Below, piece after piece: positions 322 to 12,273 of a DNA stretch of 54,106 nucleotides; position 1 is the first letter of the stretch; every line of letters starts with the position of its first letter. Both the position numbers and the translations under genes were made by a program. Source of the DNA: Rhodoferax sp. (lineage in GTDB: Bacteria > Pseudomonadota > Gammaproteobacteria > Burkholderiales > Burkholderiaceae_C); NCBI GenBank assembly GCA_013791765.1, contig VMTC01000117.1:1-54106 (forward strand), read 5' to 3'. The notes below the pieces were generated by a model. The model worked only from the letters and a program-made list of their open reading frames with translations. It had not been told where the DNA came from and did no database searches.

Positions 322-1536
322 TTACGCGAGCTGCGATTCTTTGGCCTGCGCCGTGTCCTGCAGACCGTAACGCCGAATCAGGGCGGCGCGTTGGCGCGGG
401 TCCAGGTTGATGCGGCTCGCATCGCGCCCGACCACCCCAAGCAGCCGTTCATTCATCACATAGCGCCACAGCGCCGGAATATAGGCCACGGTGAACATGC
501 CGAAATAGCCGCTGGGCAAGCGCGGCAGATTCTCAAAATGGCGCAGTGACTGGTAGCGCCGCAGCGGATGCGCGTGGTGGTCGGAGTGGCGCTGCAAGTG
601 AAAAAGCGCCCAATTGGAGAAAATGTGGTTGCTGTTCCAGGAGTGGTGCGGCTGGCAGATTTCATATTTGCCGGGCGCGCGCAGCTGGCGCAGCAGCCCG
701 TAATGCTCGATGTAGTTGGCCGAAGTCAGCTGGAAGTTGGCCCAGAACGACGCAATCAGCAAAAACGGCAGCAACCCGATCCCGAGCCAGGCAAGCAGCG
801 TGCCCCACAGCAGCAGCGTGATCAAAGCCGGTTGCAGAATTTCATTGTGCAGCGACCACAGGGGCAGTTGCACGCGCTGCAGCCGGTCGGATTCGAGCTT
901 CCAGGCGCGTTTGAACGCACCGGGCATCTCCCGCCCCACAAAATGGTAAATCGACTCGCCCATGCGCGAGGAGGCCGGGTCCAGCGGTGTTGCCACGTCA
1001 CGGTGGTGGCCGCGGTTGTGCTCGATGAAGAAGTGGCCATAAGCCGTGGGCGCCAGAATGAGCTTGGCCAGCCAGCGTTCCAGTTTCGTATTTTTATGGC
1101 CCAGCTCATGGCCCAGGTTGATGCTAAAGCCACCCACCGAACCGGTGATCAGCACCATCGCCAGCAAGCCGTGCCAGGGCAGGGCGTGCGTGCCCACAAA
1201 CCAGGCGCTGAATATGAAGGCCGCCCACAGCACCGGCACCAGCGCGTAGGTGATGCGGCGGTAGTAGCGGTCGGCGTCCAGTGCCGGCACCGCGCTCTCG
1301 GGCGGGTTGCTCAGGTCTTCGCCCAAGAGCCAGTCCAACAGGGGTGCGACGATGTAAAAGAAAATCGCCGGAATCCACAGCGCACGCACATCGCCACTGG
1401 CCAGCATCAGCGCCGGGCCGATGACCACGGTGGCGGGCACCAGCAAGGACAACAGCCAGGCATAACGTTTGCGGTCGCGGTAGGGCGGCGCCGCAGGGGA
1501 CGCTTGCACTTCGGGTGGGGACGGGCTATGGCGCAT
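322..1536 (-). CDS. alkB: Alkane 1-monooxygenase (AlkB family)
   Basis: This 404-residue integral membrane di-iron hydroxylase would convert medium-chain n-alkanes to 1-alkanols using O2 and electrons from rubredoxin. All AlkB histidine boxes are visible: HELGHKNTKLER, HNRGHHRDVATP and LQRHSDHHAHP, plus the NYIEHYGL motif typical of the family. Hydrophobic helices surround the boxes (for example LLSLLVPATVVIGPALMLA near residue 30). The length is normal for AlkB (about 400). No rubredoxin, rubredoxin reductase or AlkS-type regulator gene is adjacent, so electron partners must be encoded elsewhere. The start ATG lacks a clear Shine-Dalgarno. Related membrane hydroxylases such as XylM are less likely given the box spacing. 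Confidence 0.9.
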   Translation of the reverse strand: MRHSPSPPEVQASPAAPPYRDRKRYAWLLSLLVPATVVIGPALMLASGDVRALWIPAIFFYIVAPLLDWLLGEDLSNPPESAVPALDADRYYRRITYALVPVLWAAFIFSAWFVGTHALPWHGLLAMVLITGSVGGFSINLGHELGHKNTKLERWLAKLILAPTAYGHFFIEHNRGHHRDVATPLDPASSRMGESIYHFVGREMPGAFKRAWKLESDRLQRVQLPLWSLHNEILQPALITLLLWGTLLAWLGIGLLPFLLIASFWANFQLTSANYIEHYGLLRQLRAPGKYEICQPHHSWNSNHIFSNWALFHLQRHSDHHAHPLRRYQSLRHFENLPRLPSGYFGMFTVAYIPALWRYVMNERLLGVVGRDASRINLDPRQRAALIRRYGLQDTAQAKESQLA

Positions 1537-1804
1537 CGGCTAGGCCCGCTGCGACAGGAGCGCAGGCCGGGCAAACGCCATTCTGCGCGAAAATTGTCGA
1601 CTTGAAAACCGGGTTTTTAGGCTGGGGTGCGCAAGCGCTTGTCGGCGCGCGCCTTTCACGCAGTAGCCCGGTCGCATAGCCCAATCACCGTGCCTGACGC
1701 CGTCGAAGTCAAAATTGCTGCCGTAGAAGGCGCTCATTAATTCGCATCACACCCACCGCAGGCAACTTTTGACTTCCCCCTGTCGGCGTACCCAATCGCT
1801 CGCA

Positions 1805-1896
1805 GAATCAGTCGGGTGATGCGTTTTGCGGAGGTCAAGGAGGAGCTCGCGAAGCGGGCGGTGGACACGTAGCAAAGCGCATCGCCCGGCTGATTC
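1805..1896. repeat. Inverted-repeat pair, 25-base arms around a 42-base spacer
   Basis: The left arm (1805-1829) reads gaatcagtcgggtgatgcgt and ends tttgc. The right arm (1872-1896) is its reverse complement with about three mismatches, reading gcaaagcgcatcgcccggct and ending gattc. The right arm overlaps the start of the 116-base repeat. The arrangement resembles the ends of a small mobile or REP-like element, but I cannot assign a family. Confidence 0.6.
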
Positions 1897-1993
1897 ACCC
1901 ACCACCGTGGTATCAGCCCCGACCCAATAGCCGCACCTGAGTGCTTCGGAAAAAACCAGTCATCTGAAGCCCACATCACTTTGAATTGCACCC
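1878..1993 (+). repeat. 116-base dispersed repeat, copy 1
   Basis: It runs from cgcatcgcccggctgattca to ttgaattgcaccc. By eye it matches 12157-12273 in the same orientation with about nine differences including one indel, and similarity stops abruptly at both ends. It is intergenic here, whereas copy 2 cuts off hypD. No transposase lies nearby, so it may be a non-autonomous element or the end of a lost insertion sequence. Confidence 0.8.
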
Positions 1994-2044
1994 TTTGCGC
2001 TGCTCGCAGTCGGGTCGGGCTCAGGCGCAGCGGCGCCGTTGGAC

Positions 2045-2281
2045 TCAGTTCAGCAAGAAAGCTTTGGCATGGGCCAGACGGTCCTGCGCATCGATCTCTT
2101 CGTCATACGCGGCGCGGCTGGCCAGCGCTTCACTGGTGTAGGGAATCAAGGGTTTGTCCAGCGGGTGCAGCTTGTGGCGGCGCAGGCCGCGCAGCTGCTG
2201 CGAACGCTCCATGGTTTGCAACACGCGTTCGGGTTCCATCATCAGGCTGAAGGGATTGAGTTCAAGAGCAGTGTTGTTCAT
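2045..2281 (-). CDS. Small conserved-looking protein of unknown function (78 aa)
   Basis: I do not recognise the family. The protein begins MNNTALELNPFSLMMEPERV and is charged, probably helical, with an Arg-rich middle (QQLRGLRRHKLHPLDKP) and an acidic C-terminal third ending DRLAHAKAFLLN. It has no signal peptide or membrane segment. I chose the ATG at 2281 because GGAG lies about 9 bases upstream; a longer reading from 2350 has no such site. It lies downstream of dbpA on the same strand with a 144-base gap and could be co-transcribed. Confidence 0.65.
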   Translation of the reverse strand: MNNTALELNPFSLMMEPERVLQTMERSQQLRGLRRHKLHPLDKPLIPYTSEALASRAAYDEEIDAQDRLAHAKAFLLN

Positions 2282-2425
2282 CAGGATTCTCCGGTGGGTT
2301 CCAAGCGCCTTCGGGGTCATTTGGCGCATGAGACAACTGTAGTTGCCCACCGGGTGCGCTGAAGTCAGTAAGTGGCTGTAAAGCGTGTCGGTATTTGCCT
2401 TACACGATGACGCTGCGCGTAAAAG

Positions 2426-6969: not shown

Positions 6970-8067
6970 ATGCCCATCGATTCCCTGTTTCAACCCTTCC
7001 AGCTCAAGACCCTGAAACTGCCCAACCGGGTGGTGATGGCGCCGATGACGCGTTCGTTCTCGCCCGGGGGCGTGCCGACAACCCAGGTGGCTGACTACTA
7101 CCGGCGCCGCGCCGAAGCGGCCGTGGGGCTGATCATTTCAGAGGGCACGGTGGTCAATCGCCCCTCAGCGTCGAACGACCCGGCCGTGCCGCGCTTCTGG
7201 GGCACGGACGCCTTGGCGGCCTGGAAGCAGGTGATTGACGGCGTGCACGCTGCCGGTGGCGTGATGGCGCCGCAGCTCTGGCATGTGGGCGCGGCGCGCA
7301 ATCGGCGCTCCGACTGGGTCGCACCGGGGCCGGTGGACAGCCCCTCGGGCCTGTCGTCACCGGGCAAGCAATTTGGCGAACCGATGACTGATTGCGCCAT
7401 TGCCGACACCATCGCCGCCTTCGCGCAGGCGGCTTTGGACGCGAAAACGCTCGGCTTTGACGCGATTGAACTGCACGGCGCCCACGGTTACCTGATTGAC
7501 CAGTTCTTCTGGGACGGCACCAATGCGCGCACCGACCGTTTTGGTGGCACGCTGGTGCAACGCGGCCAGTTTGCGGCCGATATTTTGCGCGCCGTGCGCA
7601 CCGCAGTCGGCCCCGACTACCCGGTGATCATTCGCCTGTCGCAGTGGAAGCAACAAGATTTCACGGCCCGGATCGCCAAAACCCCGCAAGAGATGGAAGC
7701 CTGGTTGCGGCCGCTGGCCGACGCCGGTGCCGACATCTTCCATTGCTCGCAGCGGCGCTTTTGGGAGCCGGAGTTTGAGGGCTCTGACCTGAATTTTGCT
7801 GGTTGGGCCAAGAAGCTCACGGCTAAGCCCACCATCACGGTCGGTTCGGTTGGCTTGAGCGGCGAATTCATTGCCGCTTTTGGCGGCGAGTCGTCCCAAC
7901 CGGCCTCGCTTGATGAACTGCTGCGCCGCTTTGACCGCGGTGACTTTGACCTGGTCGCGGTTGGGCGCGCCTTGATCAACGACCCGCACTGGGTGCAGAA
8001 GATTCGTGATGGTCGCCAAGCTGAATTGATGGACTTTTCACCGGCCTCGCTGGCGACCTTGTTCTGA
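6970..8067 (+). CDS. NADH:flavin oxidoreductase, Old Yellow Enzyme family
   Basis: This 365-residue FMN-dependent TIM-barrel enzyme would reduce the C=C bond of activated alkenes using NAD(P)H. The N-terminus LFQPFQLKTLKLPNRVVMAP and the MTRS that follows are the standard FMN-binding start. PQLWHVGAARN, FDAIELHGAHGYLIDQFFWD (the His/Ala pair that holds substrate) and the C-terminal phosphate-binding VGRALINDPHW are all present. The sequence resembles the 12-oxophytodienoate reductase-like subgroup more than NemA. It ends 7 bases before hypA, so it may be part of the hyp transcript, though no functional link to hydrogenase maturation is known. A second family member lies at 18291-19412. Confidence 0.9.
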   Translation: MPIDSLFQPFQLKTLKLPNRVVMAPMTRSFSPGGVPTTQVADYYRRRAEAAVGLIISEGTVVNRPSASNDPAVPRFWGTDALAAWKQVIDGVHAAGGVMAPQLWHVGAARNRRSDWVAPGPVDSPSGLSSPGKQFGEPMTDCAIADTIAAFAQAALDAKTLGFDAIELHGAHGYLIDQFFWDGTNARTDRFGGTLVQRGQFAADILRAVRTAVGPDYPVIIRLSQWKQQDFTARIAKTPQEMEAWLRPLADAGADIFHCSQRRFWEPEFEGSDLNFAGWAKKLTAKPTITVGSVGLSGEFIAAFGGESSQPASLDELLRRFDRGDFDLVAVGRALINDPHWVQKIRDGRQAELMDFSPASLATLF

Positions 8068-8074
8068 CGCTGCC

Positions 8075-8416
8075 GTGCATGAAATGTCACTCGTTGAAGG
8101 GGTCTTGCAGCTGATCGAAGAGGCGGCGCGCAAGGATCACTTTGCCAAGGTCAGCACCGTTTGGCTTGAAATTGGCCAGCTCTCGGGCGTGGAGCCGCAG
8201 GCCTTGGCATTTTGCTTTGACGCCGTGACGCGCGGTAGCCTGGCCCAAGGAGCGCGGCTGGAGATCATTGCCGTGCCTGGCAGCGGCTGGTGCATGGCAT
8301 GCGAGAAGACGGTGCCGATGACAGAGTTATTTGGTGAATGCCCGCAGTGCGGCGGCTTCCCATTGCAGGTGACCGGTGGCACAGAAATGCGGGTCAAGGA
8401 ACTTGAAGTATCCTGA
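8075..8416 (+). CDS. hypA: Hydrogenase maturation nickel chaperone HypA
   Basis: This 113-residue protein delivers nickel with HypB to the large subunit of [NiFe] hydrogenases. It starts at GTG, giving the conserved MHEMSLVEGVLQLIEEAARK; His2 is the nickel ligand. The C-terminal half carries the structural zinc site CMACEKT and CPQCGGFPLQVTGG. Length and layout are those of normal HypA, so this gene appears intact. It stands first in hypA-hypB-hypF-hypC-(hypD), directly after the flavin oxidoreductase gene. No hydrogenase subunit gene is in the window. Confidence 0.95.
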   Translation: MHEMSLVEGVLQLIEEAARKDHFAKVSTVWLEIGQLSGVEPQALAFCFDAVTRGSLAQGARLEIIAVPGSGWCMACEKTVPMTELFGECPQCGGFPLQVTGGTEMRVKELEVS

Positions 8417-8492: not shown

Positions 8493-9380
8493 ATGTGTAT
8501 CACTTGCGGCTGTGGTGAAGCTGAAGTCAGGATCGAGGGCGAGAGCGCGCATGGACAAGGGCACGACGACAGCCACCCCCACCCCCACCCCCATTCGCAC
8601 GATGACGCCCCGGTGCACGCGCACGCCCACGCCCCCGGTCTTGCTCCCCAGCGCATGGTGCAGATCGAACAGGACATCCTGGCCAAGAACAACGCCTACG
8701 CACAGGCCAACCGGCAAGCCCTGACCGAACGCGGCATTTTTGCGCTGAACCTGGTGTCGAGCCCCGGCTCTGGCAAGACCACGCTGCTTTGTAAGACGAT
8801 CGCTTTGCTGGGCCCGCAGGCTGTGGCGGTGATTGAGGGCGACCAGCAGACCAGCCTGGATGCTGAGCGCATTCGCGCCAGCGGCGCCCAGGCGGCCCAG
8901 ATCAACACCGGCAAGGGCTGTCACCTGGATGCCCACATGGTCGGGCACGCGATGGATCACCTGAAACTTGCGCACGACTCACTCTTGATGATCGAAAACG
9001 TGGGCAACCTGGTGTGCCCGGCGGCCTTTGATTTGGGCGAGGCGCACAAGGTCGTGATTCTGTCAGTGACCGAGGGTGAAGACAAACCCATCAAGTACCC
9101 CGACATGTTCCGCGCCGCCAGCCTGATGCTGCTCAACAAGATTGACCTGTTGCCGCATCTGAATTACGACGTCGAGGCGGCGATTGCGTTTGCGCGTCGG
9201 GTCAACCCCGCCATCCGGGTGATTGCGCTCTCGGCGACCAGCGGGGAGGGCCTGAACGAGTGGCTGAGCTTTTTGCGCGATGGCGTGACCCAGGCCGGTG
9301 CGGCCAGAGCGCAGACGGTGCAAGCTTTGAAAGCCCGCGTGGCGCAACTCGAAGCCCAGTTGCAAGCGCAGGCCAGGTGA
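8493..9380 (+). CDS. hypB: Hydrogenase maturation GTPase HypB
   Basis: This 295-residue SIMIBI-class GTPase drives nickel insertion together with HypA. It begins [11 protein letters not shown], the high-affinity CxxCGC nickel motif. A His-rich, metal-storing stretch follows ([11 protein letters not shown] and HAHAHA, residues about 28-50). The G domain shows the P-loop [11 protein letters not shown] near residue 90, the metal/switch region [22 protein letters not shown] and NKIDLLPHL. The last 25 residues are an extra Ala/Gln-rich helix. The gene looks intact and is preceded by AAGGAGA. It lies 76 bases after hypA and its stop is in frame with hypF. Confidence 0.95.
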
Positions 9381-9386
9381 GCGCCC

Positions 9387-11690
9387 TTGCTTGCACACCG
9401 CATTCGCGTCACCGGCGTTGTACAAGGCGTCGGGTTCCGGCCCTTTGTCTGGCGCCTGGCGCAGCAGTTGCAACTCACCGGCTGGGTGCGCAACGATGCC
9501 CAGGGCGTAGAGCTGCTGGCCCAGGGCAGCGCGCTGCGGCTGGCCGAGCTGCTTGAGCGTCTGCGCCTTGAGGCGCCCCCGTTGGCGCGCGTCGCCACGG
9601 TGCAGGCTCAAGCGGCGCTGGCCGAAGCTTTCACGAGTTTTACCATCCTGGCCAGCCAATCGGGGCAGGCCAGCACCGCCATTGGCCCTGATGTGGCCGT
9701 ATGCTTTGATTGCCTGGACGAACTGTTTGAGCCCACCAGCCGACGCTATCGCCACGCCTTCATCACCTGCACCCACTGCGGCCCACGCTTCACCGTCACA
9801 CGCGAGCTGCCTTATGACCGGCCGCAAACCAGCATGGCGCCGTTCCCGCTGTGCCCGGCTTGTGGGACAGACTACACGGCGCCAGCGAACCGGCGCTTTC
9901 ATGCCGAGACCACCTGTTGCCCGCAATGCGGCCCGCGGCTGACTTTGTCTGACCCGCAGGCGCAGGCGATCACGGGCGACCCGATCGCTCAAACGCTGCA
10001 ACTGCTGCAAAGCGGGCACATCGTCGCCATCAAAGGCCTGGGCGGTTTTCATCTGGCCTGCGATGCGCGCAACCCAGAGGCGCTGGCGCGGCTGCGCTGG
10101 CGCAAGAACCGCGAGGCCAAGCCCTTGGCCGTGATGCTGGCCAACGTCGCCAGTGTGGCGCCGTATGCGCAGGTATCGGATGCAGAGCGGGCTCTGCTGG
10201 AGAGCCGCGAGCGCCCGATCGTGTTGCTGCGAACCGCGATTGGTGGCGCTGCGGCATTGCCCGGCGTCGCCCCCGGGCTGTTGAATCTGGGCGTGATGCT
10301 GCCGACCACGCCGATCCATTTTTTGTTGTTTCATGAAGCGGCGGGGCGGCCTGCGGGCACCCAATGGCTGAGCGAGCCACAGGCCATGGTGCTGGTGCTG
10401 ACCAGCGCCAACCCGGGCGGCGAGCCGATCGTGCGCGACAGCTTGGAGGCGCACACGCGCTTGGCCGATATTGCCGATGCCTTTCTGGACCACGACCGTG
10501 ACATCGTGGCGCGCTGCGACGACAGCGTGATTGCGCCCATGGGAGCGGGCTGGCAGTTCATCCGGCGCAGCCGCGGTTACGCGCCCGCGGCCATCAGCTT
10601 GCCCCATAGCGGCCCCTCGGTGCTGGCCTTTGGCGCCCACCTCAAGAACACCGTCTGCGTTACCCGGGGCAATGAGGCCTACTTGTCACCGCACATTGGC
10701 GACCTGGACAACGCGGCCAGTTGTGCCTTTCTCGATGAGACGGTGCAGCGCTTGTGCGATCTGCTCAATGTCAAGCCAAGCCTGGTAGCGCACGATTTGC
10801 ATCCCGATGACTACAGCACCCGCGCCGCCATCAGCTTTGCCGCGCAGCACGGGCTGCCCACGCTGGCGGTGCAGCATCACCATGCGCACATCGGCGCGGT
10901 CTGTGCCGAGCATGGCTGGCACGGGGCGCTGTTGGGGCTGGCGCTCGATGGTGTGGGTCTGGGTACGGACGCCACAGCCTGGGGCGGCGAGTTGCTCAAA
11001 GTTGAGGGCGCGCAGTTTGAGCGCTTGGGCCACCTGCGGCCCTTGGCCCTGCCCGGTGGCGATAAGGCCGCCCGCGAACCCTGGCGCATGGCAGCCTGCG
11101 TATGGCATGAGTTGGGCCGCAACGCTGACATTCCCAGGCGCTTTCAGGAGCCCGGCGCAGCGACCGTGGCCACCATGCTGGAGCGCCAGTTCAACTGCCC
11201 TCGCACGTCCAGCATGGGGCGCGTGTTTGATGCCGCTGCGGCTTTGCTGGGCCTGTGTTCCTACATGACTTATGAGGCTCTAGCCCCCGTCCTTCTTGCC
11301 CAAGAAGCTACTATTTTTATAGAGGAGAAGGGCTGGCCAGACCCCATGACGGACGGCTGGACCATCACCGACAGCGGTCAGCTGAACCTGTTGCCCCTGC
11401 TGGCTTCGCTCGACTGCGCGCCGGATGTCAACCAGGCTGCGGCCCGCTTTCACGCGACCCTAATCGCCGCGTTGACTGATTGGGTCATGCGAGCCGCAGA
11501 CGCCACCGGGCTCAAGACCCTGGCCTGGGGCGGCGGTTGCTTTCTCAACACCTTGTTATCGTCCGGCTTGCGGCAAAATTTGGAGCAACGCGGCCTCACT
11601 GTGCTGGCACCGATCCGCACCTCGCCGGGCGATGGCAGCATCGCACTCGGGCAAGCCTGGGTTGGCATGAACTATCTGGAGACAAACTGA
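9387..11690 (+). CDS. hypF: Carbamoyltransferase HypF (contains an in-frame repeat insertion)
   Basis: This 767-residue enzyme makes the CN ligands of the [NiFe] active site by transferring a carbamoyl group to HypE. Domains in order: acylphosphatase (VTGVVQGVGFRPFVW), two zinc-finger pairs (CFDCLDE, CTHCGPRF; CPACGTD, CPQCGPRL), a YrdC-like domain, and a Kae1-like domain with HHHAHIGAV, ALDGVGLGTD and GGGCFLNTL. The only possible start in this frame is a TTG 6 bases after the hypB stop. Oddity: residues about 629-646 (ALAPVLLAQEATIFI) are encoded by a copy of the dispersed repeat, placed between SYMTYE and EEKGW where relatives continue with ordinary helix sequence. The frame stays open, so the protein may or may not still work. 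Confidence 0.9.
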   Translation: MLAHRIRVTGVVQGVGFRPFVWRLAQQLQLTGWVRNDAQGVELLAQGSALRLAELLERLRLEAPPLARVATVQAQAALAEAFTSFTILASQSGQASTAIGPDVAVCFDCLDELFEPTSRRYRHAFITCTHCGPRFTVTRELPYDRPQTSMAPFPLCPACGTDYTAPANRRFHAETTCCPQCGPRLTLSDPQAQAITGDPIAQTLQLLQSGHIVAIKGLGGFHLACDARNPEALARLRWRKNREAKPLAVMLANVASVAPYAQVSDAERALLESRERPIVLLRTAIGGAAALPGVAPGLLNLGVMLPTTPIHFLLFHEAAGRPAGTQWLSEPQAMVLVLTSANPGGEPIVRDSLEAHTRLADIADAFLDHDRDIVARCDDSVIAPMGAGWQFIRRSRGYAPAAISLPHSGPSVLAFGAHLKNTVCVTRGNEAYLSPHIGDLDNAASCAFLDETVQRLCDLLNVKPSLVAHDLHPDDYSTRAAISFAAQHGLPTLAVQHHHAHIGAVCAEHGWHGALLGLALDGVGLGTDATAWGGELLKVEGAQFERLGHLRPLALPGGDKAAREPWRMAACVWHELGRNADIPRRFQEPGAATVATMLERQFNCPRTSSMGRVFDAAAALLGLCSYMTYEALAPVLLAQEATIFIEEKGWPDPMTDGWTITDSGQLNLLPLLASLDCAPDVNQAAARFHATLIAALTDWVMRAADATGLKTLAWGGGCFLNTLLSSGLRQNLEQRGLTVLAPIRTSPGDGSIALGQAWVGMNYLETN
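11273..11326 (-). repeat. Dispersed GGGCTAGAGGC-type repeat, copy 2, inside hypF
   Basis: The plus strand reads gaggctctagcccccgtcct, then an aagaagcta segment and ttttatagag. It matches the copy at 49894-49950 (ttctagcccccgtccctatt, then aagcagctcttttatagata) closely enough to be the same element. Its position inside the Kae1-like domain of hypF, without breaking the frame, is unusual. Confidence 0.75.
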
Positions 11691-12172
11691 TGTGTCTTGC
11701 ATTACCGGTCAAAGTCATTGAGGTGGGCTGCGGGCCGGCAGGTGATTGGGCCATGGTCGATCTGGGGGGCGTCAAAAAGGAAATTTCGCTGGCGCTGCTC
11801 GACGATGTTCAGGTCGGGGACTATGTCATTCTTCTCGTCGGTTATGCGCTGTCCAAACTGGACCCCGAAGAGGCCGCGCGCACGCTGGCGCTGTTCTCCG
11901 AGATGGCCGATTCAACCGCAGTGGCCCCACGAAATACATCGACGAGTTCCGCGACGGCGAAGTTGCCAAAACGCTGGCCCTCAAGATCGCCAAACGGGCG
12001 CAGCCCGGGCGCAGCCCGGGCGCAACTACAGTTTCATGGAATTTTGCGGCGGCCACACCCACGCCATCTCGCGCTACGGCCTGATCCGACCTGTTGCCGC
12101 CCCAGGTGCGCATGGTGCATGGCCCCGGCTGCCCGGTGTGCGTGCTGCCCATTGACCGCATCGCCCGGCTGA
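11690..12172 (+). CDS. hypC: Hydrogenase maturation chaperone HypC, stop codon lost (read-through tail)
   Basis: HypC with HypD carries the Fe(CN)2CO unit to the hydrogenase large subunit. Residues 1-80 are a complete HypC: MCLALPVKVIEVGCGPAGDW (essential Cys2), VDLGGVKKEISLALLDDVQV, GDYVILLVGYALSKLDPEEA. Family members end around residue 75-82. Here codon 81 is CGA at 11930-11932, where a TGA would be expected. Translation therefore continues for about 80 residues through the hypD relic in the wrong frame and ends in the 116-base repeat. The ATG overlaps the hypF stop (TGATG). The single T-to-C change inferred at 11930 also destroys the hypD start. Confidence 0.85.
   Translation: MCLALPVKVIEVGCGPAGDWAMVDLGGVKKEISLALLDDVQVGDYVILLVGYALSKLDPEEAARTLALFSEMADSTAVAPRNTSTSSATAKLPKRWPSRSPNGRSPGAARAQLQFHGILRRPHPRHLALRPDPTCCRPRCAWCMAPAARCACCPLTASPG
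11929..12156 (+). pseudogene. hypD: hypD remnant: start lost, two frameshifts, truncated
   Basis: HypD is a [4Fe-4S] scaffold for the Fe(CN)2CO group. The remnant reads (ACG)KYIDEFRDGEVAKTLAL, then in a second frame NYSFMEFCGGHTHAISRYGL, then back in the first frame LLPPQVRMVHGPGCPVCVLP. Lesions: ATG changed to ACG at 11929; an 11-base tandem duplication of gcgcagcccgg at 11998-12019; one extra C near 12086; and loss of everything after about residue 75 of the usual 370, where the 116-base repeat begins. The duplication and the extra base together add 12 bases, so the last segment returns to the starting frame. Confidence 0.9.
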
Positions 12173-12273
12173 TTCACCTACCACCGTGATATCTGCCCCG
12201 ACCCAATAGACGCACCTGAGTGCTTCGGCAAAGAACCATTGATCTGAAGCCCACATCACTTTGAATCGCACCC
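12157..12273 (+). repeat. 116-base dispersed repeat, copy 2, at the break in hypD
   Basis: It runs from cgcatcgcccggctgattca to ttgaatcgcaccc, in the same orientation as copy 1 at 1878-1993 and nearly identical. It directly replaces the rest of hypD, so the deletion that removed hypD (and presumably hypE and anything beyond) ended at or inside this element. The 168 bases from here to the next gene hold only that gene's promoter region. Confidence 0.8.

Follow-up and report, generated by a model that had tools for sequence, protein, structure and literature searches.

The closest described counterparts of the locus analyzed here are the hyb-hypABFCDE operons of Rhodoferax-like genomes (for example, L034, L038, and L094). 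These share with our sequence the gene order hypA-hypB-hypF-hypC and the length of HypC, which comprises 76 to 80 codons in these operons and leads into hypD through an NTGA stop/start overlap. In L034, hypD is full length, and genes for HybA, cytochrome b, HybC, and HybD-type and HybE-type proteins are located upstream of hypA; L038 also has a full hypD, with HybA, cytochrome b, and HybC, the three tested in this case, encoded upstream. The function of the conserved histidine of HypC has been studied in Escherichia coli (PMC9002611, with PMC12134894 as a further reference). There, HypC H51 is described as needed for HypD binding, and the H51A variant showed <5% of the total hydrogenase activity together with impaired binding of HypD. 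With hypD co-expressed, the H52A variant of HybG regained activity, in the maturation of another enzyme.

Here, we examine a hyp cluster in a 54,106-nucleotide stretch of Rhodoferax sp. DNA (assembly GCA_013791765.1, contig VMTC01000117.1, positions 1 to 54,106), hereafter the window. The cluster consists of hypA, hypB, hypF, a hypC without its stop codon, and a stump of hypD (Table 1).

Table 1. Features of the hyp cluster and of the associated repeat, in window coordinates
Feature	Coordinates	Strand	Comparison or basis
Hairpin repeat, longer copy with hairpin core	1786..1993	+	
hypA, GTG start, frame open and intact	8075..8416	+	ATG in 10/10 compared relatives
hypB, frame open and intact	8493..9380	+	
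hypF, full length (767 aa), TTG start, frame open and intact	9387..11690	+	
hypC, 80 codons as in relatives, Cys2 kept	11690..11929	+	Open frame, profile match
CTC, Leu49, equivalent of E. coli H51	11834..11836	+	His in 58/59 other HypC
ACGA at the place of the hypC/hypD NTGA stop/start overlap	11929..11932	+	Comparison with relatives
HypC read-through, 80 extra codons and stop, frame not that of hypD	11930..12172	+	
hypD stump, about 74 codons, frame broken twice	11932..12163	+	
Tandem duplication of 11 bp (CGGGCGCAGCC)	11995..12016	+	Absent in 10/10 aligned relatives
Extra base	12084..12084	+	Relative to 10/10 aligned relatives
CGCATCG, hypD/repeat junction, probable end point of a microhomology deletion	12157..12163	+	
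Hairpin repeat (same dispersed family), left-truncated copy	12157..12273	+	

Results

The stop/start overlap at the hypC-hypD junction

As stated in a preliminary description of the sequence, CGA (11930-11932) replaces the hypC stop, and ACG (11929-11931), shifted by one base from the hypC frame, occupies the place of the hypD start, directly preceding the HypD N-terminus KYIDEFRDGEV. An overlapping pair of the ATGA type, in which stop and start share bases, is absent at this junction, where the sequence reads ACGA. In bacteria, ACG is a very weak translation start.

The window HypF was used as the query to fetch 80 named loci, 58 of which include the end of HypC and 22 of which do not. The 58 junctions were sorted by a script into 41 four-nucleotide NTGA overlaps, 9 TGATG, and 8 others; on re-reading, L141, where hypD seemingly starts further on, and L142, where no hypD follows, were moved to the last class. 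The corrected counts are 40 four-nucleotide overlaps (22 GTGA, 14 ATGA, and 4 TTGA), 8 TGATG, and 10 others, and none of the 48 recognizable hypC/hypD overlaps among these 58 loci is ACGA. A HypF tree was constructed from 38 rows: the window plus 37 loci taken from the 80. Besides L097, L101, and L129, these were the nearest ones whose junction could be read, with more distant rows excluded. The window belongs to a supported set of 9 (98/97), and the 8 other members of this clade carry ATG (ATGA) in 7 cases and GTG (GTGA) in 1. Because 7 of these 8 carry ATG, a single T-to-C change at 11930 from an ancestral ATGA, as originally proposed, is the simplest history. A GTGA ancestor was suggested by the first relatives and became less likely after closer named relatives were fetched.

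The hypD stump, the missing hypE, and a dispersed hairpin repeat

The preliminary description attributed the silencing of hypD to this one change. Whatever its start codon, the gene would not function: in addition to carrying an 11-bp duplication and an extra base, it has lost about 80% of its length, leaving approximately 74 of some 380 codons. A HypD family search at the locus recovers two fragments in different frames, covering profile positions 13 to 38 and 39 to 70 of 351, and the stump is far from full length by comparison with either the profile or the intact copy of the same genome (381 aa). Homology with the hypD of 10 relatives ends near codon 74, at about 12157 to 12163, an end that had been missed in the first reading of the sequence. 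The hypE of this operon was not found in a whole-genome search, which yielded one match above the family cut-off, on contig C99, and three weak matches below it on other contigs, with none on the contig of the window.

From position 12157 onward, the sequence is a 92% copy of window positions 1878 to 1993, which belong to a dispersed hairpin repeat. Searching the same genome with this repeat produced 43 matches, of which one is the repeat itself, 39 others measure about 100 bp or more, and 3 are short; with 40 of 93 candidate places scored, there are at least 39 other copies. In the fullest form examined, the hairpin core (window 1804-1900) has a 25-bp stem and a z score of -5.75, and none of 200 shuffled sequences was as stable; inverted terminal sequences are present in some copies. 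A search of window positions 1500 to 2400 against Rfam matched no family to the repeat. Searches of relatives covered 60 genomes including that of the window, that is, 59 relatives, and sequence related to the repeat occurs in 11 of the 59, all from the same genus.

The copy joined to hypD begins inside the right arm of the hairpin, and all 19 other fetched copies contain hairpin sequence further to the left than its start. The hypD genes of relatives and the other repeat copies were compared at the junction. The heptamer CGCATCG is found at the matching place of hypD in 7 of 10 relatives (3 lack an exact match) and in 9 of the 19 other repeat copies (10 lack one). Among 223740 hypothetical junctions between the hypD of L094 and the repeat, 118 have a shared stretch of at least 7 bp. 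The presence of CGCATCG in both kinds of parent suggests that the hypD/repeat junction was likely produced by a microhomology deletion.

These findings bear on the possibility that the T-to-C change was the primary event, silencing hypD and lengthening HypC, and that the other lesions came later. The route from ATGA to ACGA by a single change is the simplest history, and outside the indels the hypD stump is still close to its relatives. However, nothing places this change earlier than the deletion, which alone accounts for the loss of the window hypD. Furthermore, hypD is not lost to the genome, given that a whole-genome search identified one intact copy, on contig C99. We therefore consider a leading role for the T-to-C change unlikely.

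HypC and its read-through

The HypC frame that starts with ATG at 11690 runs through 80 codons, continues into CGA, and reaches a stop at 12170 to 12172, for a total of 160 aa. The expected extension of HypC by about 80 residues thus holds, the frame running for 80 more codons with CGA counted. The original 80 codons are also the length of HypC in 7 of the 8 other clade members (79 in L123). The HypC/HupF profile is matched across the whole domain (PF01455, E = 3.3e-24; TIGR00074, E = 2e-20), the N-terminal Met-Cys is present (MCLALPVKV), and a single change affects a column invariant in relatives (0 to 2 in other rows). Nothing about the tail points to a function: when hypC is read on past its stop in 16 relatives, the frame remains open for another 10 to 103 codons.

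The gene does not, however, read perfectly up to its lost stop, as had been claimed. The conserved histidine near residue 50 is missing; residue 49 is leucine, and the comparison set of 59 HypC sequences consists of the 58 named loci and the C99 copy, one of the two HypC copies found in the whole-genome search. The sole non-histidine among these 59 is a glutamine in L097, a distant match (41% identity) that is probably a paralogue. By analogy with E. coli, Leu49 need not be fatal to HypC, because HybG H52A still supported maturation when hypD was co-expressed. What this HypC appears to have lost is contact with HypD, a partner that its own operon no longer has.

The preceding genes, the upstream flank, and the second hyp locus

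Changes at invariant columns number 3 in hypA (one being the GTG start), 2 in hypB, and 10 in hypF, compared to 0 to 3, 0 to 6, and 4 to 18, respectively, in the other rows. There is thus no excess of conserved-column changes in these three genes, and dN/dS is ordinary for all four, hypC included. Judging from these comparisons, hypA, hypB, and hypF may still be functional; a recent relaxation of selection would be hidden on the long branch of the window. A candidate repeat-like insertion in hypF near 11307 (GCTACTATTTTTATAG) was rejected: the protein aligns with 10 relatives without an insertion, and this is the only site of the motif in the window.

Upstream, a gene for an FMN oxidoreductase (PF00724, which we take to be the "old yellow enzyme" family) ends 7 bp before hypA (window 8065-8077). 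At the cut-offs used, the flank genes are matched in 2 (GGDEF), 11 (transglycosylase), and 14 (FMN oxidoreductase) of the 59 relatives, and in the 10 relatives with both FMN oxidoreductase and HypD, the two are on different contigs. Flank synteny accordingly carries little information. The other breakpoint of the old operon is probably the boundary between the FMN oxidoreductase gene and hypA.

Contig C99 carries an intact hypC-hypD-hypE set beside other hydrogenase genes, the subunit genes among which are presumably hox. The HypB, HypC, HypD, and HypE of C99 all score above the family cut-offs. HypA scores 74.4 bits, below its cut-off of 88.1, and HypF is a short form of 394 aa, its match to the HypF profile being confined to the C-terminal half (L033, 8575-9759). 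A whole-genome search for large subunits yielded two on C99, one on C117, and, on C32, a match that falls short of the cut-off. Compared with the C99 and C117 subunits, the hyb large subunits of relatives show only 22 to 31% identity. Queries with HybA and cytochrome b found nothing in the four stretches of the same genome that were tested.

Because C99 has only a short HypF and a HypA below the cut-off, the window genes might be important. One reading along these lines is that a split hyp set is in use, in which the full-length HypF of the window, with HypA and HypB, operates together with the HypC, HypD, and HypE of C99. The intact and constrained appearance of hypA, hypB, and hypF is consistent with such a division. 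Conversely, of the 33 relatives in which HypD is matched, 11 lack the zf-HYPF match that marks a full-length HypF, although 5 of these 11 (G002, G004, G005, G010, and G022) have candidates that were partly scored and two (G005 and G020) have a partial HypD. One of them, G022, has a whole, C99-like short HypF of about 398 codons; in G032, the HypF frame runs past the end of the fetched stretch. Because 11 of the 33 HypD-bearing relatives lack the match, a short HypF, it is suggested, can suffice, and a split set in use is accordingly doubtful. An extended version, in which the cluster is selected as one half of a split set (HypF here and HypD and HypE on C99) and the long Leu49 HypC serves shifted partners, could draw on an E. 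coli precedent, the change in client specificity of HybG when its histidine was exchanged (PMC9002611); it is highly improbable.

Discussion

The locus is, with high probability, the remnant of a redundant hyb-hyp operon that is decaying at its 3' end. A hyb-type uptake-hydrogenase operon, consisting of hyb genes followed by hypABFCDE, would have been made redundant by the second hydrogenase/hyp locus. Illegitimate recombination at the short stretch that hypD and the hairpin repeat share would then have removed the remainder of hypD along with hypE. The T-to-C change, the replacement of His49 by leucine, the 11-bp duplication, and the extra base would be hits in the unselected 3' end. If expressed, HypC would reach 160 aa, its tail being a product of chance, and would probably bind HypD weakly; maturation would depend on HypC, HypD, and HypE from the other locus.

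With Leu49, the duplication, the extra base, and the deletion, hypC-hypD carries at least five changes, only one of them the lost stop/start (ACGA). The "coupled gene loss" that the preliminary description saw in it may be a by-product of decay. Against decay stands the observation that, beyond Leu49 and the lost stop, hypC looks ordinary, and nothing in the sequence appears to mark it or the preceding genes as decaying.

An error of sequencing or assembly at 11930 or within the hypD stump is very improbable: the assembly is a draft of 136 contigs, and copies of the hairpin repeat are also located near several contig ends, but the lesions are several and distinct, lying within about 330 bp of each other, and one is a junction with only 7 shared bases; moreover, the adjoining genes are long and open. 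The sequence beyond the repeat copy at 12157 to 12273 could be an assembly misjoin; the hypD side of the junction, sharing only 7 bases, is less open to one.

If the locus is indeed a decaying remnant, it would be a clear natural case of the decay of a redundant accessory operon, illustrative rather than surprising. It would combine a single base in a stop/start overlap that affects two genes together, a chaperone that loses the residue binding its absent partner, and a dispersed hairpin repeat that marks the end of a deletion.

Comparison with known systems

In contrast to L034 and L038, the window has no hyb structural genes that could be found upstream, and its hypD is a stump. L101, from an uncultured beta proteobacterium, resembles the window in encoding HypF and HypC while lacking a hypD downstream of hypC. 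However, the hypC of L101 (6320-7800) is shortened to 69 codons, and a response-regulator-like gene follows immediately, its start overlapping the hypC stop; the absence of hypD there is probably a separate, independent loss. The HypC H51A and HybG H52A variants of E. coli (PMC9002611) have the same histidine replaced, by alanine and through engineering, whereas the HypC of the window carries a natural leucine in a gene that is also without its stop.
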